Shown: positions 21,919 through 40,938 of the stretch, piece by piece | Numbering within the stretch: the stretch's first letter is position 1 | Layout of the letters: the number at the start of each line of letters is the position of its first letter | Assembly (NCBI GenBank): GCA_017415995.1 | Contig: JAFQDN010000026.1 | Span: forward strand, 1 to 52,016 | Length of the DNA stretch: 52,016 nt | DNA from: Akkermansia sp. | Lineage (GTDB): Bacteria > Verrucomicrobiota > Verrucomicrobiia > Verrucomicrobiales > Akkermansiaceae | Direction: 5' to 3' | Notes under the pieces: generated by a model | Told to the model about the DNA's origin: nothing | The model's database searches: none | What the model saw: only the letters and a program-made list of their open reading frames with translations | Made by a program: the position numbers and the translations under genes

Positions 21919-24900
21919 TTAAGCTGCTGAAATGGTTATCGGTTCATGCAGTTTGTTGACAATTTGAATAACGGTCTGATATCGAGCACCAAAAAGATCA
22001 GTCAACATAAAGTTGTTGAACGGCTCTTGATTTACTACAATATTCGTATCTATGTCGCCATTGACTCTCACGTAGTTAATGATGCTACGGATGTATTCCT
22101 GCTGCATTGAGTTAAAGGTGTTGTCGTTCAGGTATTCGCTGAATTTCTCATTCACGACTTCTTGATTTAACCCTACAAGACTGCGCACAAATGCCGCTAA
22201 ATTACAGATATCTGTGGTTTTATTGTAATCATCCCGTGATCCTAATTTATGCCACAAGATATGTTCCAGCTCAAGCAAATCATCCTCGTTAATCGGCTCA
22301 AGGTTGTAAATCTTACTAATCACTTGACTATTGATATTTTCCATCAGGTAGTCAATAACTTTTTGCCGATAAGTGCGAATGTCGATAGCCGTACCGTCAA
22401 CGCCCGGTCCGTCACTAATCGTATCTGTAATATCAATGTCGTACTGAGCTCGTCCTTCTCCTTGTAAGAACTGCATCAACTCACGCAGACTCCGGCGCAA
22501 TCTCTCAAGCTCCGGTACGGATGGTGATTGCCAGAAATCATTGTCGACAATCATCTTCAAATCAGCAGCTTTTGCCTGAACTTGCGGGATAGAAGCCTTT
22601 TCCGTAAGCAAATAGTGCGCAACCTCACGGATTTTTTTCACATCTTTCGCAGCTTCCTTCACGTCACCACTACATACAAGAGCCAATGCTACATGCAGCA
22701 TGCGGCAATCAAAGGCCAGAGAGAGGGGATGCCCCTGAATCCCGGAATCCAGCAAGGGCACAATATGTTTCCTCAGCTCTTGTAATGCTACAGGCGTAAG
22801 AGCCGTCCAGTTCTCCCAATCGTAGAACTTATCCACGTATTGCATTTCCGCCCGCACTTGTATGCGGTTGCTGTGGGATTTAATAACGCCCATTTGACGA
22901 TGAAGCGCTTCCTTGAGCTCATCATAGTATCCTTTGAACCACTCGTCTTCTTGATATTGAATATCTTGCAGGCCATAGAGCATATCAGCTTGCAGGGTAA
23001 ACAAGCGTTGTGTCAGACTCAGCTGATTACCTTGCGATGGCTTACCTTCCGGCAAATTACCAAAATACTCAAAGTTAGCACAATAATCAAAAATGTAGAA
23101 TTCGCTCTTGTGGCGCCCGGGGCCATATATATTTTCGCACAGTCGAGTGCCTCGTCCAATCATCTGCACAAACTTTATCTTAGAGCGCACTTTCTTGAAG
23201 AACACCAGATTCAGCACTGCCGGAATATCCACGCCCGTATCCAGCATGTCCACCGATACGGCAATACGGAACTCCGGGTTGGTATCAAATTGCTCAATAA
23301 GACTATCAGCATTCTGTACATAATTATCCACCAGCTGACAGGTATTCGCCGGATAGTCCGGGTACAGCTCGTGGAAACAATCCACAATCATCTGAGCATG
23401 TTTATGATTGTAAGCAAAGATGATGCTTTTGCCCAGAGTCTCTCCATTGTTTACTTTCAGGCCCTGAGTCATCAATTCCTCAATGACTTGACGGCAAGTG
23501 TTCTTGTTGAACAGGAATCGGAACAATTCATTCCCGGGAACATTGAAATCCGGCGTGGGCAAACGCCTCTCGGCAAAGTAATCATCCAATTGCTCCCGTT
23601 CTTCCGGCGTCAATTTACTCGGGTCAATACCTTCGGAAATTAAAAGCGAGGTGCGGTTGATAACTTTGTACCCCACCAGATAATGCTCATCTATGGCTTC
23701 CTCCAATGAATAATCAGAGTCAGGCACGCCCGATTCGCAAGCAAACAAGCTGTAGGTATTAGCATCCACCTCGTTCTTGGGGGTTGCCGTCAGCCCTACG
23801 AGCAAACTATCGAAATACTTGAAAATGGAACCATATCGATTGAAGATACTGCGATGCGCCTCATCAATGATGATAAGGTCAAAACGCCCGGATTTGAACC
23901 GCTTATCCTCAGCATCAATGTAGTTAATCATCGTCTGGTATGTACAGAACATCAGGCGGGCATTGTAGTCCGGCTTCTCCCTGCCGGACAATTCGCAGAT
24001 GCTCGTATTCGGCATAAGCTTGGCATAATTCTGCTTGGCCTGATGCACCAGACTGGTGCGGTCTGCTAAGAAAAGTACATTCTTTACCCAGTTGTTGCGC
24101 GTCAGAATATCGACCAATGAGATGGAGACTCTCGTTTTTCCCGTCCCCGTTGCCATCACCAGCAATCCACGCCGCTGCATCTTGTTAAGTTTCTCACAAA
24201 GTCGAGTAATGGCTATCTTCTGATAAGGGCGATTCGTGATGTCATCGTTAATGGTGAAATCCGTTATATCGGAGCGCCCTCTTTTATGGAGCATCAGCTC
24301 CAACTCGTCTTGCGTATGAAATGCCAGCACTTGCCTGTCCGGGTACAGACCGTCCATTACCTTGGTGGTATAGCCGTTAGTGTAATAGAGCACGGGCTTG
24401 TAGCCATAGCGCTTCTTCATGCATTCGCCATACAAATCCACTTGGTGGCGGCCTTTCTCGGGGGATATGGATGTACGCTTGGCCTCTACGATAGCAAGGG
24501 GTTTACCATTCCGTCCATAGAGTACATAATCGCAATAGCCCAAACCTGTTGCGTTAGGCATTCCCTCTACTTCTATTTCAATGCCGGCCATGCTTGGCTG
24601 AGCCACATTCTCACTCTCAAGCACCTCCCAACCGGCCTCACGCAGATACAAATCTATATAGAGTTTGCGCGTATTTGCCTCGCTCATGTAAGGCGGCTTC
24701 CGGTAGGGAATGTCAGGGGTATGCTCTCGGTGGTCAATCAGTTCCGCCACGGCGGAAATATTCTCAACAGCCAGTTGAGCTTCTGCCTTGCGTATGCGCA
24801 CTGCATGTTCTGCATTCATACCCAGAATGCGCACATAGTGCATGGCCTGTATCACATCTGCATCGTTGATGAAGTCGACTACTGCCGAGTTGTCTATCAA

Positions 24901-25059
24901 CTCCAGCAAAGTCGCTTTTTTAGGGAGCTTGATGTTGAGATGCTGATAGATGCCCTCCACAAGTTCTTTGAGCATTTCCCGGCTCAATCGAGCCTTGTCT
25001 CCGGCATTTGATGCAGAGCGTATTTGTGTGAGCTTGGTCTGTACCTGTTCCCGATTCAT
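21919..25059 (-). CDS. hsdR: type I restriction enzyme, R (endonuclease and translocase) subunit
   Basis: HsdR pumps DNA and cuts it when the HsdM2S complex meets unmethylated sites. The 1046-residue chain has a PD-(D/E)xK nuclease core near residues 175-205 (GYCDYVLYG...LAIVEAKRT). The SF2 motor follows with Walker A ATGTGKT (Lys308), DEAH at 399-402 (IIIDEAHRS) and LVGLTATP. QMIGRGTRLC of motif VI is also present. A helical HsdM-binding region closes the chain. An N-terminal DUF4145-like helical block precedes the nuclease, as in EcoEI-type R subunits. It is the last gene of the operon, 17 bases after the YhcG-like gene. All catalytic motifs appear intact. Confidence 0.95.
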   Translation of the reverse strand: MNREQVQTKLTQIRSASNAGDKARLSREMLKELVEGIYQHLNIKLPKKATLLELIDNSAVVDFINDADVIQAMHYVRILGMNAEHAVRIRKAEAQLAVENISAVAELIDHREHTPDIPYRKPPYMSEANTRKLYIDLYLREAGWEVLESENVAQPSMAGIEIEVEGMPNATGLGYCDYVLYGRNGKPLAIVEAKRTSISPEKGRHQVDLYGECMKKRYGYKPVLYYTNGYTTKVMDGLYPDRQVLAFHTQDELELMLHKRGRSDITDFTINDDITNRPYQKIAITRLCEKLNKMQRRGLLVMATGTGKTRVSISLVDILTRNNWVKNVLFLADRTSLVHQAKQNYAKLMPNTSICELSGREKPDYNARLMFCTYQTMINYIDAEDKRFKSGRFDLIIIDEAHRSIFNRYGSIFKYFDSLLVGLTATPKNEVDANTYSLFACESGVPDSDYSLEEAIDEHYLVGYKVINRTSLLISEGIDPSKLTPEEREQLDDYFAERRLPTPDFNVPGNELFRFLFNKNTCRQVIEELMTQGLKVNNGETLGKSIIFAYNHKHAQMIVDCFHELYPDYPANTCQLVDNYVQNADSLIEQFDTNPEFRIAVSVDMLDTGVDIPAVLNLVFFKKVRSKIKFVQMIGRGTRLCENIYGPGRHKSEFYIFDYCANFEYFGNLPEGKPSQGNQLSLTQRLFTLQADMLYGLQDIQYQEDEWFKGYYDELKEALHRQMGVIKSHSNRIQVRAEMQYVDKFYDWENWTALTPVALQELRKHIVPLLDSGIQGHPLSLAFDCRMLHVALALVCSGDVKEAAKDVKKIREVAHYLLTEKASIPQVQAKAADLKMIVDNDFWQSPSVPELERLRRSLRELMQFLQGEGRAQYDIDITDTISDGPGVDGTAIDIRTYRQKVIDYLMENINSQVISKIYNLEPINEDDLLELEHILWHKLGSRDDYNKTTDICNLAAFVRSLVGLNQEVVNEKFSEYLNDNTFNSMQQEYIRSIINYVRVNGDIDTNIVVNQEPFNNFMLTDLFGARYQTVIQIVNKLHEPITISAA

Positions 25060-25076
25060 AGGTGTAGAGAAATTTA

Positions 25077-26255
25077 TTACAGGAGTTTTCGCAAATCTTC
25101 CATGCTGGGTAAAGCGCGGCGCAGCTTCTCCGGCATTTCATCTCGGGTCTTGTATACCGCTACGCCCATCGGTTTGGCATAGTCTCGCACGGCATATTCC
25201 ACATAGGGCTTTTCTGCATCCGAACATAAAATGATGCCTATGCTCTGGTTCTCCTGTGGCTTACGCACATAGTCATCCAGCAATTGCAGGTACATATTCA
25301 ACTGCCCCAAATACGCCGCCTTGAATGGTCCGGTTTTCAGCTCAATAGCCACGAGTGCCGTAAGCTCTCGGTTATAGAACAACAAATCTATAAAATGCTC
25401 CTTACCGTGCGCTTCGATGCGGTATTGATTGCCCATGAAGGTGAAATCCCGACCAAAGGTCATGATGAAATCACGAATGTTGTGTACAATGGCATTTTCC
25501 AGCACCCGCTCGTCAATATCCTCTTTGTCCCTCGCGCCAAGTTCTTCCACATTGATGAAGTCCAGCAAATACTCATCGCGGAACATTTCCACGGCTTTCA
25601 ATGCGGAACGTGTGTCTCTGAGAGCCAACTCGAAGTTATTCGGCATTTGCCCCCTATGGCGGTACATGTCGTTGGCTATCGCAGCCTTCAGCCGAGTTAC
25701 GCTCAGCTGCTCCGTTGCACTTAAGCGCACATAGTATGCGCGCTCTGCAACGTCTTTGACTTCTCGCAATATCATGCTATGGTGCGTAAAAGATACAGCC
25801 TGAAACTCCTCAAGCGTCATCCCCAATGTAACTGTAAAAATGTCACTTTTTTGTAACCATTCTAATTCGTCAGTCGCGACTAGCGAATTTACAATCGATT
25901 GAGATTCCGTACTTTGAGCATTTTTATCATCAAAGAGATGTGTCAATTTTCGTGGACTCCACTCTTCATAAAAAGTGCGCATTAATTTAATATTCGCAGG
26001 GGAAAATCCCCTCAATCCGGGCAACTGCTCCTGCAACCGTCGGCTAATATAATCTATAGCACCCTTACCCCATTGACCGCTTCGGGAATGGACTGATATA
26101 TACTGCCCTACACTATAATAAAGCGCAAGCTGTACCGCATTCACCTGTCGCGCAGCTTGTACCTGGCGCTGCAAGATGACGCTCTTGATAACTTGCACCG
26201 CCCAATCATAATTATCGTGCGCCCCCATGCCTTTATCTCCCTGCAGTTGTTCCAT
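25077..26255 (-). CDS. YhcG/DUF1016 family PD-(D/E)xK nuclease
   Basis: This 392-residue protein belongs to the YhcG family, often found inside type I restriction loci. The N-terminal DUF1016 helical domain spans about 15-170, with VQLALYYSVGQYI and LPGLRGFSPANIKLMRTFYEEW. The C-terminal nuclease domain spans about 200-350, with HFIDLLFYNRELTALVAIELK carrying the Asp and ExK catalytic residues. The ATG at 26255 is preceded by a good ribosome site (AAAGGAG). It sits between hsdS and hsdR, 33 bases after hsdS. Its role in restriction is not established for this family; it may be a second effector or a loading factor. Confidence 0.92.
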   Translation of the reverse strand: MEQLQGDKGMGAHDNYDWAVQVIKSVILQRQVQAARQVNAVQLALYYSVGQYISVHSRSGQWGKGAIDYISRRLQEQLPGLRGFSPANIKLMRTFYEEWSPRKLTHLFDDKNAQSTESQSIVNSLVATDELEWLQKSDIFTVTLGMTLEEFQAVSFTHHSMILREVKDVAERAYYVRLSATEQLSVTRLKAAIANDMYRHRGQMPNNFELALRDTRSALKAVEMFRDEYLLDFINVEELGARDKEDIDERVLENAIVHNIRDFIMTFGRDFTFMGNQYRIEAHGKEHFIDLLFYNRELTALVAIELKTGPFKAAYLGQLNMYLQLLDDYVRKPQENQSIGIILCSDAEKPYVEYAVRDYAKPMGVAVYKTRDEMPEKLRRALPSMEDLRKLL

Positions 26256-26288
26256 CGCCTTCTCCTTTACTACGTTTAGACTCCCAAG

Positions 26289-27383
26289 TCAATCAAAATA
26301 TTCCTGCATCAGACTATCAAAAAGCTTCTGCGTCTCATCAAGCGATTGCTGAATGACAAAGCGTAATTTGTAGATGCGGCGTAGAAAAATTGTAAAATCC
26401 CTTTGTAGTTGAATATCCGGCACTGCGATTCGCAGTTTTTTTAATTTTACACCAGGTAAATGAGCTATAGTAGCCTTTGCTCCTGCAATGACATCAAAAG
26501 CTTTGTGGTCACAATTATACTTAAACCACCATGCCACATAATCAGGCAACACCTTGTTAACATCACACCGTACGCGATGCAAAGCTTTCTGAAAAAAACA
26601 TTCTTTTAGTTCGTTATGCCACACCGCACATCTTCCTATTTCTCCTCCTTCACAGACGAGAATATCTCCTTCCTTTAGTTGGAACTCAATTCGTTCATTG
26701 TCGTCAAAGTCCATTTTGTTTAATTGATTTAATTCGAAATGGAACCACTGTACATTGAAGTTTGCCAAATAAGGATAGTTATTTCTTCCTGTTTTATGTT
26801 TCGTATCCAGCATTTTTCCTAATCTGGAAGAGGTTATATCTCCAAGATTATATATTGCCCACTTTTTATCATTGCGTATAATATCTCCAAACAACTCTAC
26901 AAATCGGCATTTGACGAGCTCATCCAGCTTGGCAAGCTGTTTGTTTCGTTTATCAATTGCTGATTTTACTTTTTCCAAACGCTCAACCAACGAGCGTTGC
27001 TGATTATAAGACGGCAACTCAATGAGGGCCTCCGTGAGATTACCCAATTTTATGTACTTTATTACCCCGCCAATTGCTAATTTTCTAAGTTCAACTATGT
27101 ACTTCTCCATGAAGTAGTACAAGTAAGGCATGTACAATACATTTGGCTGCTTAGCTTCAATAATGTATGTTCTCTGATACGCGTCAAATTTGCCGTTGTA
27201 ATATTTAACATTCAAATCGCCATTTCCCGCCACCAATATACATTCACACTCGTATGAGTAAGTGTTGATTTTTAATGGCTCCCTAGAGCATGTAAAAAAA
27301 GGATATGCTCCGTCTTCAGATGACGCATTGGCATCTAATTTACCAGTTCTGATTTTGGTAAGGTTTCCAAGTTTAACTTTCAT
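26289..27383 (-). CDS. hsdS: type I restriction-modification specificity subunit
   Basis: HsdS recognises the two half-sites of the target sequence. The 364-residue chain has two target-recognition domains, about 1-150 and 190-345, each followed by a coiled-coil spacer (SLVERLEKVKSAIDKRNKQLAKLDELV and the final FTIFLRRIYKL helix). The ATG at 27383 is chosen over a GTG two codons upstream because GGAGGGG sits seven bases before the ATG but only one before the GTG. The gene is visibly richer in A and T than its neighbours, which is common for hsdS genes that are exchanged between strains. It lies 16 bases after hsdM. Confidence 0.93.
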   Translation of the reverse strand: MKVKLGNLTKIRTGKLDANASSEDGAYPFFTCSREPLKINTYSYECECILVAGNGDLNVKYYNGKFDAYQRTYIIEAKQPNVLYMPYLYYFMEKYIVELRKLAIGGVIKYIKLGNLTEALIELPSYNQQRSLVERLEKVKSAIDKRNKQLAKLDELVKCRFVELFGDIIRNDKKWAIYNLGDITSSRLGKMLDTKHKTGRNNYPYLANFNVQWFHFELNQLNKMDFDDNERIEFQLKEGDILVCEGGEIGRCAVWHNELKECFFQKALHRVRCDVNKVLPDYVAWWFKYNCDHKAFDVIAGAKATIAHLPGVKLKKLRIAVPDIQLQRDFTIFLRRIYKLRFVIQQSLDETQKLFDSLMQEYFD

Positions 27384-27399
27384 ACACACCCCTCCAAAT

Positions 27400-28905
27400 T
27401 CAGATTTGTCGTTCCAGCAACTTACGCAATTCAGCCATTTCTGCCTGAATCTGCGTTTCCAACCTCTCGATATTATCCAAGATTTCCGAAGAAGGGGGAT
27501 ATTCGACCGGGATATAAACTGTTTTCTTGTACTTATTGATGCTCAAGTCATAGTCGTTGTCTACAATTTCCTGCTTCGGGACAAAGAAGCTCTGCTCGGT
27601 ACGTTCTCTTGCTGTTTCGGCATCGAGATTGGCAAAGCGGGCAATGATATCAGGGATATCATTCTGCTCGATAGGTGTGCGCTTATCGTCAAGGCTGAAG
27701 CCATCAGCCTTCATATCGTAGAACCAGACATGATCTGTCCCGCCGGCATCCGTACGAGTGAAGATGAGGATAGCCGTCGATACCCCCGCATAGGGTTTGA
27801 ACACCCCGGAGGGCATGGAGATAACGGCACGGAGCTGTTGATTTTCCACAAGCTCCTTACGCAAAGCTTTATGAGCCTTAGAACTGCCGAAGAGTACGCC
27901 GTCCGGCACGATAGAAGCGCAGCGTCCGCCGACAGAAAGCATTTTGGTGAAAAGAGCCATGAAAAGCAGCTCAGTCTTGGAGGTAGAACAAAGAGCAGTC
28001 AAATCCTTGCTGATATTTTCCTTAAACACGCTGCCCTTAAAGGGCGGATTAGCCATAATGAGCGAGTAGCAGTCACGCTCAGAATTCTCCTTGGAGAGCG
28101 AGTCACGATACTGAATATTCGGCTTCTCTACGCCATGTAGCATCATGTTCATTGCACCAATGCGAAGCATGGACTGGTCTGTATCATAACCGGAGAAAAG
28201 GCCTGATTTGAAGTAAGCCATGTTCTGAGTCTTCATCAACTCGGCACGTTGGTGCGCACTGATATAAGCACAACTCTGCTGCAAGAATCCGGCGCTTCCC
28301 ATCGCGGGGTCAAGAATCTTGTCCTTGAGGGTAGGCTTCATGAGCTGCACCATTATGTCAATAATATGGCGGGGAGTACGGAATTGCCCGTTTTCACCGG
28401 AAGCAGCAATCTTGCTCAGCAAGTATTCATAAACATCGCCCATGAGGTCTTTATTATTCATGTCCAGCGCATCAATACCATCCACAACCTTGGCCAACAC
28501 ATTACCGGTGGGAATCAGGAAGACGGTGTCCTTCATGTAGCGGCTGAAAGCCGTGTCTTTACCCTGGCCTATCGACTTGATGAAAGGGAACACATAGTTA
28601 CGTATATTCTCCAGCATTTCACCCGGCTCCATGTGGTGAAAAACACTCCAGCGCAGATTGCGGTAATCCGTTTCAATGCGTGGTGTTTCGCTGATGACGC
28701 AGATTCCATCTCCAAACACTTTATTGGCTAAAGGCACACCAAGGATATTGGCGTTGGCCTCAGCCTTGAGCTGATTATCATCCAGCAACTTCATGAACAT
28801 CAGATAGGTAATCTGCTCCAGCACCGTAATAGGGCTGGAAATGCCACCCGTCCACAGCGTTTCCCAAATGGCATCCACCTTGTTTTTTAACTCACCTGTA
28901 ATCAT
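27400..28905 (-). CDS. hsdM: type I restriction-modification N6-adenine methyltransferase
   Basis: HsdM methylates adenine in the HsdS target and marks DNA as self. The 501-residue protein starts with the N12-type helical domain (ITGELKNKVDAIWETLWTGG). It carries AdoMet motif I DPAMGSAGF and the catalytic NPPF at 286-289. The open frame extends to a GTG at 28974, but that part overlaps the operon's own -10 box and does not belong to the family N-terminus, so the ATG at 28905 is preferred. It is the first gene of the hsdM-hsdS-yhcG-hsdR operon. Confidence 0.95.
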   Translation of the reverse strand: MITGELKNKVDAIWETLWTGGISSPITVLEQITYLMFMKLLDDNQLKAEANANILGVPLANKVFGDGICVISETPRIETDYRNLRWSVFHHMEPGEMLENIRNYVFPFIKSIGQGKDTAFSRYMKDTVFLIPTGNVLAKVVDGIDALDMNNKDLMGDVYEYLLSKIAASGENGQFRTPRHIIDIMVQLMKPTLKDKILDPAMGSAGFLQQSCAYISAHQRAELMKTQNMAYFKSGLFSGYDTDQSMLRIGAMNMMLHGVEKPNIQYRDSLSKENSERDCYSLIMANPPFKGSVFKENISKDLTALCSTSKTELLFMALFTKMLSVGGRCASIVPDGVLFGSSKAHKALRKELVENQQLRAVISMPSGVFKPYAGVSTAILIFTRTDAGGTDHVWFYDMKADGFSLDDKRTPIEQNDIPDIIARFANLDAETARERTEQSFFVPKQEIVDNDYDLSINKYKKTVYIPVEYPPSSEILDNIERLETQIQAEMAELRKLLERQI

Positions 28906-28962
28906 GCGTATTGAAAAGTTTTGAGCTTGCTGAAGCTCGTCTTCATAGTATCGTACGCTGAT

Positions 28963-28971
28963 ATTATAGCA
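28963..28971 (-). promoter_or_regulatory. extended -10 promoter of the hsd operon
   Basis: On the minus strand TGC is followed directly by a consensus TATAAT (28963-28968), an extended -10 element. No good -35 box lies at the normal distance. Transcription would start near 28955, about 50 bases before the hsdM ATG. Confidence 0.6.
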
Positions 28972-29062
28972 CACAATACCCGGTTTACTCCAGCGTAAAA
29001 TGCATGTATCAAACTTTTATCCGTCCGTCATGTTGAGACAATAGAATGGAGGAAATAAATTC

Positions 29063-29090: not shown

Positions 29091-29096
29091 GTGGGC

Positions 29097-29729
29097 ATGA
29101 AGCGGTTAAACATTGCCATTGCAGCCTTGGCGTTACTTTGTCCTTCGTGTGCGTACATGCAAAGCCACAAAAATGTGGAAGAGATGGGGAGAGTATACGA
29201 AGGGAGCCGATTAGAGAAAAACGGGATTGCCTTGTACAGTGCCGGCGGTAATTGGTATTTGGCAGCACCGGCCGCCAAATTCCGCAAATCCTACCCACTT
29301 TTTCATGATTCCGTTTTACTGACGGAAAACAATGAGCCTGAGTTCAAAAAAGTACAGGGTACATTGCAATACAGCACCTTCTACTTCCGGATATCGGAGG
29401 GCACGGCAGCATGCTTGCGGAGAACGGATGGCTATGCTAACCTGGAAGACTTGGCACAGGAAATACGCAGCGGCACTGCTAAGCCCCTTTCATCCCTACC
29501 GGGCGGCGTACGCCATGCCATTGTAGCCCATATACAAGCGCCGAAAAACGCAGTAACGCTCGTCAATGAGCCCACAACAACGCCCTCTATGGCAACCAAG
29601 ATGCTCAGCAAGGCGGATTTTGTGCTGCTGGACATTCCCGGAACAGTGGCATACAACGTGGCCATTCCCTTTATGGCACCTTTTGTATTCTTCCGCGAGT
29701 TCACGAACGAAGAGAATGAGTTTCATTGA
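29097..29729 (+). CDS. small exported protein, possible lipoprotein
   Basis: The 210-residue protein has a hydrophobic N-terminus ending LALLCPSCAYMQ, so Cys near residue 18 could be lipidated, although the box is not canonical. A Tyr- and Lys-rich beta region follows (GNWYLAAPAAKFRKSYP, then TLQYSTFYFRISEGTAACLRR). A hydrophobic stretch near the end (AYNVAIPFMAPFVFF) may be a second membrane contact. A GTG two codons upstream is possible, but the promoter spacing favours the ATG. The gene ends at the edge of the candidate replication origin. No family was recognised. Confidence 0.75.
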   Translation: MKRLNIAIAALALLCPSCAYMQSHKNVEEMGRVYEGSRLEKNGIALYSAGGNWYLAAPAAKFRKSYPLFHDSVLLTENNEPEFKKVQGTLQYSTFYFRISEGTAACLRRTDGYANLEDLAQEIRSGTAKPLSSLPGGVRHAIVAHIQAPKNAVTLVNEPTTTPSMATKMLSKADFVLLDIPGTVAYNVAIPFMAPFVFFREFTNEENEFH

Positions 29730-29739
29730 GTTAGCATAC

Positions 29740-29953
29740 TTATTCACATAAATTGTTAATAACTCTGTGAATAAGTGTGTTAATAACAATGTGAGTAACT
29801 ATCTATTCACGAAACAGACAAGTTACTGACTCGGATATTCACATGGGAACAACGCACGGAAAAACTGATAACTAACGGGTTAGAGCACTTATTAACGTTA
29901 TTCACATGGTATATGAAGATGAATTTATAAATTTAAATTCTATATTATTCAGA
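29740..29953. other. candidate chromosomal replication origin (oriC) with DnaA boxes
   Basis: Three perfect TTATTCACA DnaA boxes (consensus TTATNCACA) occur: 29740-29748 plus, 29766-29774 minus, 29898-29906 plus. Three one-mismatch copies lie at 29790-29798 (minus), 29835-29843 and 29945-29953 (plus), and a two-mismatch copy at 29803-29811. An almost pure A/T stretch at 29922-29949 could be the unwinding element. The whole 295-base gap 29,730-30,024 has no open frame of interest. Support comes from three parS sites within 11 kb to the right and an apparent change of strand composition around this point. It could instead be a DnaA-regulated promoter region for ribD. Confidence 0.72.
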
Positions 29954-29986
29954 TAAGCGGAAAAAGAGGAGCAGAGCCGGCATACC

Positions 29987-30014
29987 TTGACAGAGCAAAA
30001 CACAGTGATACAAT
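29987..30014 (+). promoter_or_regulatory. promoter of ribD
   Basis: TTGACA (29987-29992), a 16-base spacer and TACAAT (30009-30014), with only ten bases to the ATG at 30025. It borders the DnaA-box cluster, so DnaA binding could influence it. Confidence 0.65.
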
Positions 30015-30024
30015 ACAAGCACGG

Positions 30025-31071
30025 ATGGACACATACTCGATAGATCAGGACAGCCTTTGGATGGCACGCGCGCTGGAATTAGCACATAAGGGCTTGGGGA
30101 CTACCAGCCCCAATCCGCCTGTGGGTGCAGTTATTGTAAAAAACGGGGTACTGCTGGGCGAGGGATGGCATGAGGTAGCCGGGGAGGCACATGCAGAGCG
30201 CCGCGCCATAGCCAATGCCTACTTACGCGGGCATGCTGAGGATTTGGTAGGTTCCACGATATATATAACGTTAGAGCCCTGCTCCAGCCATGGAAAAACG
30301 CCACCCTGCACGGATGCAATCATTGCAGCAGGTATCAGCCGAGTTGTTTACGGGGCCGTGGACCCGGATGAACGCCACAGGGGCCGTGCAGATGCCGTCC
30401 TGCAGGAGCATGGCATTGCGGTGCGCAGTGAGTGCTGCGCGGCCACCTGCGAGCTGCTGGTGCGCCCATGGGCGTATTCTGTGTTGCACAAGCGGCCGTG
30501 GGTTACAGCTAAGATTGCCTGTACCTTAGATGGGCGGTTGACGCGTGCGGGGCTCCGGTGGCTCAGCTGCGAGGAATCCGTACGTTTTGCTCACCAAATG
30601 AGGCTGGAGAGTGATGCCATTTTAGTGGGGGGAAACACATTGCGGGCAGATAACCCGGCTCTCACCATCCGCAAACCCTACCGCGAGGTTCCTTTTGTAA
30701 AAAAACAACCTTGGCGCGTGGTGATGACGCGCGATGCCTCTACCCTGCCGGATACGGCCAAGGTATTTACGGATGAACATGCAAGCCGTACCCTTATCCG
30801 TGAGAATGTGGGGGATTTGAAGGCCATGCTGCATGCTTTGTATGAGCAACAAGGCGTGGTCAACCTGATGTTGGAGTGCGGCGGCAACCTGTTACGCGCA
30901 TTCCTGGAGGCCGGTTTGGTCAATGAGTGGGTGCAGATACTGACTCCGCGCATTACCGGCGGGCCGGATGCCTTGCTGCCCGGCTACTTTATGCCCTGCG
31001 AGCGCTTTTTTGAGCAAGAAGAGCTGATTCCCAGCGGACAGGATATTATTATCCGTGGTCTTATTCATTGA
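30025..31071 (+). CDS. ribD: bifunctional riboflavin biosynthesis deaminase/reductase
   Basis: RibD deaminates and then reduces the pyrimidine intermediate of riboflavin synthesis. The deaminase domain (1-145) has its zinc and catalytic residues in HAE (His56, Glu58) and PCSSHGKTPPC (Cys86, Cys95). The reductase domain (150-348) begins RPWVTAKIACTLDGR and contains the substrate/NADPH loop SDAILVGGNTLRADNP. The length of 348 residues is normal. The gene lies directly right of the candidate oriC and is followed without a gap by the metallophosphoesterase gene. The other riboflavin genes are absent except ribF at 41-42 kb. Confidence 0.95.
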   Translation: MDTYSIDQDSLWMARALELAHKGLGTTSPNPPVGAVIVKNGVLLGEGWHEVAGEAHAERRAIANAYLRGHAEDLVGSTIYITLEPCSSHGKTPPCTDAIIAAGISRVVYGAVDPDERHRGRADAVLQEHGIAVRSECCAATCELLVRPWAYSVLHKRPWVTAKIACTLDGRLTRAGLRWLSCEESVRFAHQMRLESDAILVGGNTLRADNPALTIRKPYREVPFVKKQPWRVVMTRDASTLPDTAKVFTDEHASRTLIRENVGDLKAMLHALYEQQGVVNLMLECGGNLLRAFLEAGLVNEWVQILTPRITGGPDALLPGYFMPCERFFEQEELIPSGQDIIIRGLIH

Positions 31072-36338: not shown

Positions 36339-38000
36339 ATGTTCCACGTGGAACAGCTGGCTCTTGCTTTGGTTTCAGCTGCTGCTATTGCGGCAGCTGA
36401 GTCAACGGTTGGCTACAGCTTAAAATTTGAAGATGACGAGTATGCGGAACCGGTGGAAGAAGCGTCCGCTACCGAGCCTGCACCGGAGCTAACCCCCTCC
36501 CCTGCCCCGGTTGATGAAGAGACTGCGGAGGAGGTTGTGGAAGTGGAACCGGAGGAGACGGAGTTGAAGCGTTATCCGGAGCAAAACTTACCCTTGGCAA
36601 CGTCTGACGCCGATGTGGCGCGTTGTGTGGAGGCGGGCATGGTGGATTTGTTGCTGGGGTGGGAAGAGTCCGCGCAGCGACATTTTGAAGCAGCCATCGT
36701 GCATGGGGTACACCCGGATAGCGAGTGTATGCTGGCACACATCGGCATGATTATGTCGGTGCCGGATACGCGGTTGAAGGAAGAGAACCGCAACAAGCTG
36801 ATGGAAAAAATTGATGTGGTGGCAGCCACACCGGTTGAGCAATTCTATCTGGCAACCTTCCTGAAATTAATATCACGGGAGCATGATGCAGCGGCGAATG
36901 ACTTTGCGGAACGCGCCACGCGCTACCGGGCAGACACGTTTTCCGCCGCCTGGGCAATCATGCTTTTGCACTGTGCAGATGTGGGCTATGATGCTACCGG
37001 GCGTCCGAATATGCACCAGGCGCGTGCATTGGAATTGGCAGAGCAATTTTATCAACAATATCCGGAGGATGCACTGATATGTTACGTACGTGCCTACATT
37101 GAGGAATCGGCGCCGAAGATATCGGAGCAGGCGCTGGAGGCCTCTGCAAAGGCCTCGCAACTGTTGCCGGGGCATCCCATGCCACAGCTGTTGCATGGGC
37201 ATCTTCTGTACCGTTCTGAGCGCGCTGCTGAGTCAGTGCCGTATTTCCGCAAAGCGGCGGAGTTGGCAGCAGGTGCAGAATTGCAACCCTTGCAGGAGCG
37301 ATTGCGCATGATAGCTCGTTTGTATGAGTCCACCGCATTATGGAGTGCTTGGAGGGATGAGGAAGCGCTGGAAACCCGCAAAGCCATGAACGCCGTGGCA
37401 GTGGATTCCACTTGCATGAAAACGCCTCTGATGGTGCTTTTGCGCTGGGAGGCCAACACCCTGCCCCTGCGTATACTTATCCGGCGTGAGGAAGCGCCGA
37501 CGGTAACGGAGATACGCGCCGCCGCAACGGCTGCAACGCCCTCCCCTGCTCTGCCCGGTGAGGACACCGTGCTGAAGGTGCGTAATTGCCTGCGTGCTGC
37601 TCTCTACGCCCGCGCTCGCATGAAGTCAGGTGATGTACAAAGCGCGCAAAAATCACTGTGTCTTGCACAAGAGGCATTGGCTGAGTTTCAGGATACGGAG
37701 GAGGATGTATTTGCACAAGGGGTGGAGTTTATTACGCCGTGGTACCGAGCGTTGGAGGCTTGCAAAATTGCCGTCCTGGTAGCAGGTTCCGAGGTGTACC
37801 CGGACCCGGATGAATTTTGGAAGAAGGTAGCAGCTTCATCCATGCGCCCCGGCACCATGTTGCTGCCGCCCCCGGTACCGAAACGCTGTGGAGAAAACCC
37901 GAATCCCAAGCCTGCTGCAAGCGCGGCTTCCAAGAGTGCCGGTGGTCATAAAAACAGCACTAAAAACACGAGAAAACGTAACCGGAAACGCAGAAGATGA
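36339..38000 (+). CDS. exported TPR-like protein of unknown function
   Basis: The 553-residue product starts MFHVEQLALALVSAAAIAAAES; its first six codons are the parS site itself. A hydrophobic signal-like stretch (6-20) precedes an acidic, Pro-rich segment (about 30-85). Helical TPR/Sel1-like repeats follow (about 95-340, with AALEASAKASQLLPGHPM... YFRKAAELAAGAELQPLQERL). The last 30 or so residues are very basic (HKNSTKNTRKRNRKRRR). No enzyme motif is visible. No in-frame start lies upstream before a stop codon, and the next ATG is far inside, so this start seems right although no ribosome site is evident. It overlaps the next gene by four bases (ATGA). Confidence 0.8.
   Translation: MFHVEQLALALVSAAAIAAAESTVGYSLKFEDDEYAEPVEEASATEPAPELTPSPAPVDEETAEEVVEVEPEETELKRYPEQNLPLATSDADVARCVEAGMVDLLLGWEESAQRHFEAAIVHGVHPDSECMLAHIGMIMSVPDTRLKEENRNKLMEKIDVVAATPVEQFYLATFLKLISREHDAAANDFAERATRYRADTFSAAWAIMLLHCADVGYDATGRPNMHQARALELAEQFYQQYPEDALICYVRAYIEESAPKISEQALEASAKASQLLPGHPMPQLLHGHLLYRSERAAESVPYFRKAAELAAGAELQPLQERLRMIARLYESTALWSAWRDEEALETRKAMNAVAVDSTCMKTPLMVLLRWEANTLPLRILIRREEAPTVTEIRAAATAATPSPALPGEDTVLKVRNCLRAALYARARMKSGDVQSAQKSLCLAQEALAEFQDTEEDVFAQGVEFITPWYRALEACKIAVLVAGSEVYPDPDEFWKKVAASSMRPGTMLLPPPVPKRCGENPNPKPAASAASKSAGGHKNSTKNTRKRNRKRRR
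36340..36355. other. parS centromere site 1
   Basis: The perfect 16-bp palindrome TGTTCCACGTGGAACA fits the chromosomal parS consensus TGTTNCACGTGNAACA bound by ParB. It overlaps the start codon of the TPR-like gene (ATG at 36339-36341), so a bound ParB could affect that gene's expression. It lies about 6.4 kb from the DnaA-box cluster. Confidence 0.92.
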
Positions 38001-39525: not shown

Positions 39526-39541
39526 TGTTCCACGTGGAACA
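39526..39541. other. parS centromere site 2, doubling as a hairpin
   Basis: A perfect TGTTCCACGTGGAACA lies in the gap between two convergent genes. The palindrome extends to 26 bp (39521-39546), and on both strands it is bordered by T-rich sequence. As RNA it would form a stem of 11 bp with a four-base loop followed by UUUU, so the site could also act as a terminator for both genes. Confidence 0.92.
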
Positions 39542-40045: not shown

Positions 40046-40938
40046 GTGATGTGTGCGTTAAATTTTTTCAGAATGAGTGAGGGATAGTAAGAAAGCTTGG
40101 CGCGTCGCAAGCCTTCTATGTTCAAATCCTCTTCGCGGTTAATGAGTGGGGTGTGGGTTCTCAGAGCAAACTCACGGTTGATGATGGGGTACGCATCACG
40201 GAACTCCGGTATGCATTTTTCGTAGTGAATATCCGTAATGTTTTCGTTGATGACGGAGGCAACACACATAGCAATAGGTCTGTTGTTCAGTAATAAGATG
40301 CCACCCCGCAGCCGCAGAAGCTCCGGCATGGAAAGTGCTTTTTTGATGGCTGCAAACTCATGCTCCGGGGCAGGGGAGTTGTACATATTTTCCTTCCAAG
40401 CGGCTGCTATGCCAAGTGCCTTGTCGCTGTTTTCCGCTGTAAGTTCCATGTAGATGCACTTGCCGTACACTCGCTCAAACTTGCGGATGTGGTTCCTTTT
40501 TTTATGGTATAAAGTGCCCGGTAAGTTTGCCAATGCTGCCGTATTGTAGATGTAATCAGAGTCTCCCTCATCACAGCTTACGGTCATTTTGTTGCCGTAA
40601 CGTGTCTTTAATTTGGCAACTTCTTCTTCCGTCAGTAGGCAAAATCTAAGCTCTTTTTCGCGTCTTTCCGCATCGGTTTCTATCACATGAAGACAGCTTT
40701 TTATGGCATCCGTATCACCTTTTCCGGCCGGAAAAGCGTATCCTTTCAGTCGTGTTTCACCCCCGAAATAGCGCAACAAATGTTCCACGTGGAACATGAT
40801 TTCTGTGTGATATTTTTCACGCAAAAGGTAGAGATTGGTAAATGAAAGATCACTTTGGAGGGCAGATAGAGCGCACCTACGCACAGCGTCTGCATCGCTG
40901 AGCTCGGGTATTCTGAATATAGGTGCCGCGTTGTTCAT
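40039..40938 (-). CDS. DUF2156 family acyltransferase-like protein
   Basis: DUF2156 proteins are GNAT-fold relatives of the lysyl-phosphatidylglycerol synthase catalytic domain. The 299-residue protein shows the family signature LYHKKRNHIRKFERVYG, the HYEKCIPEFRDAYPIINREFA block and the end LNIEGLRRAKLSYYPSLILKKF. The ATG at 40938 was chosen because an extended -10 box lies 13 bases upstream; two earlier methionines fall in or before that promoter. The third parS site lies inside the coding region and is read as MFHVEH. The substrate is unknown. Confidence 0.87.
   Translation of the reverse strand: MNNAAPIFRIPELSDADAVRRCALSALQSDLSFTNLYLLREKYHTEIMFHVEHLLRYFGGETRLKGYAFPAGKGDTDAIKSCLHVIETDAERREKELRFCLLTEEEVAKLKTRYGNKMTVSCDEGDSDYIYNTAALANLPGTLYHKKRNHIRKFERVYGKCIYMELTAENSDKALGIAAAWKENMYNSPAPEHEFAAIKKALSMPELLRLRGGILLLNNRPIAMCVASVINENITDIHYEKCIPEFRDAYPIINREFALRTHTPLINREEDLNIEGLRRAKLSYYPSLILKKFNAHITC
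40781..40796. other. parS centromere site 3, inside a gene
   Basis: A perfect TGTTCCACGTGGAACA (18 bp as ATGTTCCACGTGGAACAT) lies inside the DUF2156 coding region and encodes MFHVEH. Conservation of the exact 16-mer inside a gene would indicate selection for ParB binding over codon choice. Confidence 0.9.

Follow-up and report, generated by a model that had tools for sequence, protein, structure and literature searches.

A likely chromosomal replication origin away from dnaA in Akkermansia, with candidate cytosine-centred DnaA-trios

The stretch of DNA analyzed here (the window, 52,016 nucleotides) corresponds to contig C21 in a 99-contig Akkermansia sp. genome of 2.8 Mb. Its gene ribD (30025 to 31071, plus strand), with Pfam RibD_C and cytidine deaminase domains, is preceded by a gap of 295 nt, within which a candidate origin occupies positions 29730 to 29965. 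The left neighbor of the gap is a small putative lipoprotein gene (29091 to 29729, plus strand), an open reading frame with an uncertain start codon and without a Pfam match. Further left, at 21919 to 28974 on the minus strand, lie genes that by eye resemble a type I restriction-modification system (HsdR, HsdS, HsdM-like). Between the candidate origin and ribD, at 29987 to 30014, a promoter-like TTGACA and TACAAT with 16 nt between them could be discerned by eye, and similar letters also precede ribD in many of the named relatives described below.

A sequence-only reading had proposed this gap as a chromosomal origin away from dnaA, pointing to three perfect and three one-mismatch DnaA boxes beside an almost pure A/T stretch. 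In the gap we found the three exact TTATNCACA boxes (29740, plus; 29766, minus; 29898, plus), while the one-mismatch boxes numbered five instead of three (29754, 29778, and 29790, minus; 29835 and 29945, plus). All exact boxes read TTATTCACA, and 0 of the 3 match the strict form TTATCCACA. This clustering exceeds chance, as not one of 2000 dinucleotide shuffles of the 295-nt gap reached 3 exact boxes, and not one reached 8 boxes in total (mean 0.62, maximum 4). The outer exact box on the left (TTATTCACA, 29740 to 29748, plus) lies 158 nt from the exact box that is proximal to the predicted unwinding element (the DUE-proximal box). It is followed by a tandem array of four minus-strand boxes with a 12-nt pitch, in which the second box is exact (TTATTCACA, 29766 to 29774) and the first (29754 to 29762) and third (29778 to 29786) are one-mismatch copies that both read TTATTAACA. 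The fourth, a one-mismatch TTACTCACA at 29790 to 29798, is 108 nt from the DUE-proximal box and GTGRATAA-like in most alignment rows. A one-mismatch middle box (ATATTCACA, 29835 to 29843, plus) was recovered by both the box search and the alignment. Finally, a weak box with two mismatches (TTATTAACG, 29889 to 29897, plus), noticed by eye and CTTAT-like in most alignment rows, abuts the exact DUE-proximal box (TTATTCACA, 29898 to 29906, plus) and is possibly its tandem partner.

The A/T stretch at 29922 to 29949 was confirmed (27 of 28 positions A/T); it is the sole 28-mer with at least 27 A/T in the whole window and the predicted melting site. A one-mismatch DnaA-box-like TTATTCAGA (29945 to 29953, plus) sits at its right edge. 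The DUE-proximal box is oriented toward this element, and between the two we observed a tract that the sequence-only reading had not noticed. After a 4-nt spacer, TGGT (29907 to 29910, plus, delimited by the alignment), the plus strand continues at 29911 to 29925 as ATA TGA AGA TGA ATT, with the last triplets overlapping the unwinding element. Read in the fashion of Bacillus subtilis, the minus strand gives 3'-TAT ACT TCT ACT TAA-5', a series of candidate DnaA-trios with middle bases A, C, C, C, and A and with A or T as the first base. In B. subtilis, the box is followed by a GGCC spacer and by 3'-GAT-5' trios on the opposite strand, which is captured 3' to 5' (PMC8287927, PMC8235120, PMC10316083). 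The spacing from box 29898 (4 nt to the first triplet, 7 nt to the first WGA triplet) is within the 16-bp limit of the basal unwinding system (BUS). The published trio rule of at least three 3'-NAN-5' triplets near a box (PMC8287927) does not hold at box 29898; within 16 nt of this box in the window, no A-centred run of three was present in any register.

A skew minimum had been expected at the gap, and the expectation was borne out both in the window and in two closed relatives. In the window, 28 of 29 two-kb skew windows starting at 1 to 28001 were negative and 20 of 22 starting at 29001 to 50001 were positive, with mean values of -0.078 for the left arm and +0.076 for the right arm. The cumulative minimum fell at 29026, which is 0.7 kb to the left of the gap, and the steepest rise with 15-kb arms at 27.4 kb, so that the turn is located to one to three kb. 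Since the genome itself is fragmented, we sampled 20 stretches each from two closed genomes of the same genus, G038 and G028. In G038, all nine samples up to base 972,000 were negative, all ten from 972,001 to 2.25 Mb were positive, and the final one at 2.5 Mb was negative again, which fits a terminus opposite. G028 behaved in the same way (9/9 negative up to 1,237,000; 9/10 positive from there to 2.71 Mb; negative at 2.94 Mb, with the terminus opposite the turn), with a noisy 2-kb profile near the gap. These turns match the positions of ribD and the boxes at 973.1 kb (G038) and 1,237.9 kb (G028). The ribD match of G038 falls in two separate pieces (C1:971953-972980), as if the gene were split in this closed genome.

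Both closed contigs begin at dnaA (bases 385 and 422), with negative samples on either side of the gene, and the skew turn is approximately 1.0 and 1.2 Mb away. In the genome that contains the window, dnaA is on contig C67 and dnaN on contig C31, away from the gap as had been stated, and skew was negative across all 20 kb of the dnaA region. An origin at dnaA was rejected on the grounds of skew. The further claim that gene order would not reveal the origin needs some qualification for G038 and G028, where dnaN lies approximately 1.5 to 2 kb from the origin and gene order is thus not wholly silent.

To the right of the gap, a pattern search returned three parS-like palindromes, TGTTCCACGTGGAACA, at 36340 to 36355, 39526 to 39541, and 40781 to 40796. 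They are the only three parS-like sites at no more than one mismatch in the genome, all within the window and 6.4 to 10.8 kb from the gap. Such sites often lie close to bacterial origins, although they do not strictly define them. A TGTTCCACGTGGAACA site was found near ribD in 5/5 genus genomes, and G028 has one more site elsewhere, with two mismatches. The reversed-pattern control matched once in the genome under study, twice in G038, and once in G055; with a tighter search it gave 0 matches in the genome under study. A ParB domain, sought near the parS-like sites, was absent among the 10 window proteins scanned with Pfam.

Fifteen named relatives were fetched with the RibD protein of the window. 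All are labelled as Akkermansia or Akkermansiaceae MAGs, and because of these labels genus g1 was taken as Akkermansia and family f1 as Akkermansiaceae. The boxes had been predicted to be conserved in relatives, and they are: the gap region was alignable in 15/15, and at least one exact TTWTNCACA box occurs within 600 nt upstream of ribD in 14 of them, the exception being L045 with none. Ten relatives have exact copies of both the outer and the DUE-proximal box, and in all ten the distance from one to the other is 157 to 159 nt, to be compared with the 158 nt of the window. In the alignment of the window with the 15 relatives, the outer box, the tandem array, the CTTAT-like weak box, the DUE-proximal box, the triplet tract, and the A/T stretch are kept, with exceptions. 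Skew rises across the gap in 14 of the 15 and changes sign in 13, several left arms being short (423 nt in L036); L045 runs in the opposite direction and L037 is negative throughout. In another genus member, G002, the 4-kb locus holds 0 TTWTNCACA boxes and the tract (TAGATGATGATGAATT) is still present. Altogether, the skew turn, the conservation of the boxes, and the nearby parS-like sites agree in supporting an oriC away from dnaA, and we infer that the ribD gap is very likely the site at which chromosomal replication initiates.

The reading frame of the triplet tract was examined in 16 rows (the window and the 15 named relatives), all of one genus and chosen by RibD rather than by motif; these rows, like the motif rows below, are related by descent. 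The middle base is A or C in 16/16 rows for each of triplets 1 to 4, never G or T, and in 14/16 for triplet 5. The two bases replace one another at the same position, with 6 A and 10 C in triplet 1, and 10 C and 6 A in triplet 2. When the register was moved one base to the right, an A or C middle was found in 0/16 rows for each of triplets 1 to 4, and one base to the left the counts were 10, 10, 15, and 13 of 16. The rule is broken by triplets 1 and 2 at offset 4 in a lineage with a 13-nt spacer (G038, G167, and G415; G028, G047, and G055; also L004, L005, and L007), as if a second, degenerate box intervened.

To see how far the tract extends, we turned to genomes of the family and the phylum. 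The pattern TTATNCACAN{0,9}AGAWGAWGAW gave one match each in 20/60 family genomes, from 9/16 genera, and its reversed form gave 0. A looser pattern matched 54/195 genomes and 12/16 genera (reversed pattern, 1 match), of which nine genera were left after dropping g4, g8, and g16, whose matches are unsupported. The tract marks places that resemble origins, as skew was higher on the right at 19 of the 20 first motif sites, with a sign change in 12; it rose barely in G044 and G017 and not in G058. Of these 20 sites, 17 have a parS-like site no more than 18 kb away on their own contig (G011 qualifies only if two mismatches are allowed), at two others it was on another contig (G012, G005), and in G017 it was absent; the reversed parS pattern had matches in 6/11 of a group of family genomes searched. 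Without a parS-like site and with nearly unchanged skew, the G017 match is unlikely to be an origin. The same can be said of an identical string in three g16 genomes, two of which have ribD and parS on another contig.

Among the 43 sites with flanking DNA, the spacer from the box to the C-centred run is 4, 7, or 13 nt in 13/13 genomes of the genus and 0, 3, or 6 nt in 30/30 other family genomes. The genus thus has a register of 1 mod 3 and the other genera one of 0 mod 3, so that box and tract are not separated by a single fixed distance. The remaining 11 of the 54 motif genomes are known as matched strings only; six fit the spacer rule and five, not being 0 mod 3, do not (G375, G029, and the identical string in the three g16 genomes). 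Triplets that lie outside the search pattern follow the same trend, as triplet 2 at spacer 6 is TTA or ATA (A-centred) in 9/9, and 23 of 28 sites with spacers 3 and 6 have A or C at the center of triplet 1. Seven genomes missed by both patterns were inspected within about 20 kb of parS. Four have a tract after a one-mismatch box, with spacers of 3, 0, 6, and 6 and a skew rise at each, and in three (G019, G006, and G056) no tract was found within that distance. By eye, a similar module is located upstream of ribD in reversed orientation in genera g8, g9, g12, g14, and g16. In g10, g13, G030, and G058 the module is on a different contig from ribD, yet together with parS, and a tie of the tract to ribD is thereby ruled out. 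In 3/60 family genomes, a box is followed by four consecutive Y-T-W triplets. Across the phylum, the strict pattern matched 7/288 genomes (4/32 in the family, 3/256 outside), and since the reversed pattern matched 2 genomes, the 3/256 give no sign of a phylum-wide code.

Two further elements were seen by eye in other genera of the family. Many of these origins (L104-L123) carry one or two GTGGAAC-like copies before the DUE-proximal box, within about 110 bases of the tract, which resemble half of the parS palindrome. In g12 (L006, L008, L009, L011, and L016), a second box-like GTGAATAA or GAGAATAAC lies beyond the unwinding element and points back toward the first; the element may therefore sit between two boxes that face each other.

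On the strand predicted to be captured, the tract reads 3'-W(C/A)T-5', as against the known DnaA-trio 3'-GAT-5'. We lean, with some reserve, toward a family-wide change of the base that is read, in which at least nine Akkermansia-related genera would use 3'-W(C/A)T-5' trios with A and C interchangeable and a distance to the box that changes by whole triplets.

The DnaA protein was considered next to these sequences, because the contacts of B. subtilis DnaA have been described. It captures the first two bases of each trio, with the amino group of the middle base contacting Asn187, and it tolerates C in place of the middle A better than G or T, both in vitro and in vivo, as reported in PMC10721633. 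For B. subtilis, Arg202 and Glu228 contact G, the first trio base, and Asn196 is reported to contact the third base. Residues 58-513 of the DnaA from the genome under study align with B. subtilis DnaA (8btg). Glu183, Asn187, Ile190, Arg202, and Glu228 (B. subtilis numbering) are kept in 7/7 family DnaA proteins; Asn187, the reported reader of the middle base, is thus retained. Arg202 and Glu228 are kept, yet the first base of the trios in the tract is A or T and not G. Position 193 is I in the DnaA under study, V in three proteins, and S in the three others; position 196 varies, with Asn196 kept in 0/7, and the stretch 183-202 is longer by two to three residues in the four genus DnaA proteins examined.

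These observations have to be weighed against other readings of the same DNA. The strongest of them, which we consider improbable though deserving of serious attention, accepts the origin and denies that DnaA reads the minus strand of the tract as C-centred trios. The tract could instead be used as 5'-GAW repeats on the plus strand, be bound as duplex by another factor, be read in an A-centred register where one is present, or simply be an easily melted flank. Outward from the box, the plus strand indeed reads G-A-W, the known trio letters in opposite polarity. This mirror-trio reading (5'-GAW-3' on the box strand) is retained only as an alternative, since the C-centred reading leaves the known polarity unchanged; moreover, DnaA was reported to require trios carried on a 5' tail, and hence a single polarity, to form oligomers (PMC8287927). 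An A-centred reading is possible in some relatives, because TGATGATGA reads as 3'-TAC-5' when the register is moved by one base. Up to 16 nt from the box, A-centred runs of at least three occur in some register in 6/16 aligned rows (L034, L036, and L043-L046) and in 19/43 motif rows (11/43 within 7 nt), but 24/43 motif rows have none, and the C-centred register alone covers all 16 aligned rows for triplets 1 to 4. Also against this alternative, the spacer lengths vary by multiples of three, the interchange of A and C is expected from the known DnaA pocket, and the residues of this pocket are mostly kept.

A far less probable alternative is that the cluster titrates DnaA or has a regulatory function (datA-like, or controlling ribD), with the origin elsewhere, for example at dnaA. 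DnaA-box clusters outside origins are known in bacteria, and the promoter-like letters between the boxes and ribD would fit a regulatory role. In another verrucomicrobium, Methylacidiphilum infernorum, skew mapping put the origin upstream of dnaA, at a distance of 250 nt (PMC2474590). Against this stand the turn of skew, which in the two closed relatives falls at the gap rather than at dnaA, the negative skew of the genome's own dnaA region, and the parS-like sites on this contig; furthermore, in other genera the module is reversed relative to ribD or unlinked from it, yet mostly stays with parS and a skew rise. A second cluster in the same genome (C15:62,579-62,670), with three exact TTATTCACA and one TTATACACA in 92 bases, has next to no chance of being the chromosomal origin and was ruled out, as the genes around it resemble phage genes by eye (portal, tail) and it shows no consistent skew turn.

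This C15 cluster (L047 9979-10070) may be a prophage site that uses the host DnaA. Another array, C51:18382-19479 (in L049), consists of twelve TTATTCACA copies that share an orientation and are mostly spaced by 87 nt, a tandem repeat with one DnaA box per unit; it was set aside as an origin, skew being positive on both sides.

We therefore return to the reading of the gap as the origin with C-centred trios. As a whole, namely that the gap is the origin and that DnaA from box 29898 opens the duplex by way of the cytosine-centred trios at 29911 to 29925, we hold it to be likely, with the call of the origin as its stronger part. In such a scheme DnaA would fill the outer box, the 12-nt array, and the DUE-proximal box, with the outer array presumably assembling the remainder of the complex. 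From its anchor at 29898, a filament would grow along the minus strand 3' to 5', as in B. subtilis, and would capture the first two bases of each triplet, so that C or A, both of which bear an amino group, would sit in the pocket equivalent to that of Asn187. The A/T stretch would then open and helicase would enter there, forks would depart both ways, as skew suggests, and the parS sites on the right would serve segregation. Judged from its sequence, the tract is best described as a variant that probably works like BUS rather than as a proven member, since it departs from the published trio rule at box 29898 and agrees with the amino-group rule. As an oriC, the locus adds a member to a known type.

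The location of the origin alone may be known already, because a Hi-C study with A. muciniphila YL44 among its strains used skew and parS to locate origins and noted that these need not coincide with dnaA (PMC10197239). In one comparison of A. muciniphila genomes, the genome start was set at dnaA, which was taken to be the origin of replication (PMC6624636); A. muciniphila itself probably behaves like G038 and G028, given the genus that it shares with the window. Among the matches listed in our searches of the literature on Akkermansia and Verrucomicrobia origins and on DnaA-trios, there was no report of this origin sequence, and DoriC may list the locus; nor was there, among the matches listed for the DnaA-trio literature, a report of natural C-centred trios. 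For this gut genus, an origin approximately 1 Mb from dnaA in two closed genomes matters for growth-rate estimates based on coverage and for the rotation of genomes. In a survey of BUS, 15% of origins yielded no trios, and the authors suspected that deviant forms exist, such as trios lacking the central adenine (PMC8287927). The Akkermansiaceae tract is a candidate for such deviant trios and matches the amino-group rule later found in B. subtilis (PMC10721633), and how far the melting code can drift becomes directly testable with one purified DnaA.

The proposed arrangement can be compared with several characterized origins. As in the B. subtilis BUS (DnaA-box #6/#7), a box lies beside the tract, followed by a 4-nt spacer, 3-nt repeats, and an A/T-rich stretch beyond; the third trio base is T in triplets 1 to 4, and most DnaA pocket residues are kept. 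It differs from BUS in that the middle base is mostly C and not A, the first base is A or T and not G, the spacer is TGGT and not GGCC, and the origin lies away from dnaA. The order of box, triplets, and unwinding element is shared with oriC2 of Helicobacter pylori and of Clostridioides difficile (PMC8235120, PMC7561715), where the strand complementary to the trios has a T in the center (5'-YTD-3'; PMC8235120) in the place that is mostly G here. Tandem triplets are likewise found in the eTrio of Thermotoga maritima, where they are needed for opening (PMC10316083); there, TAG triplets are combined with a divergent DnaA box, whereas the captured strand here reads 5'-TCW-3'. With oriC of Escherichia coli, the locus has in common that the origin is apart from dnaA and that weaker boxes form an oriented array. 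Unlike the recruitment of DnaA to the E. coli single-stranded DUE through TTGT or TTATT motifs, both of which are absent from the minus strand of 29907 to 29950, recruitment at the ribD gap would involve the triplet tract instead.
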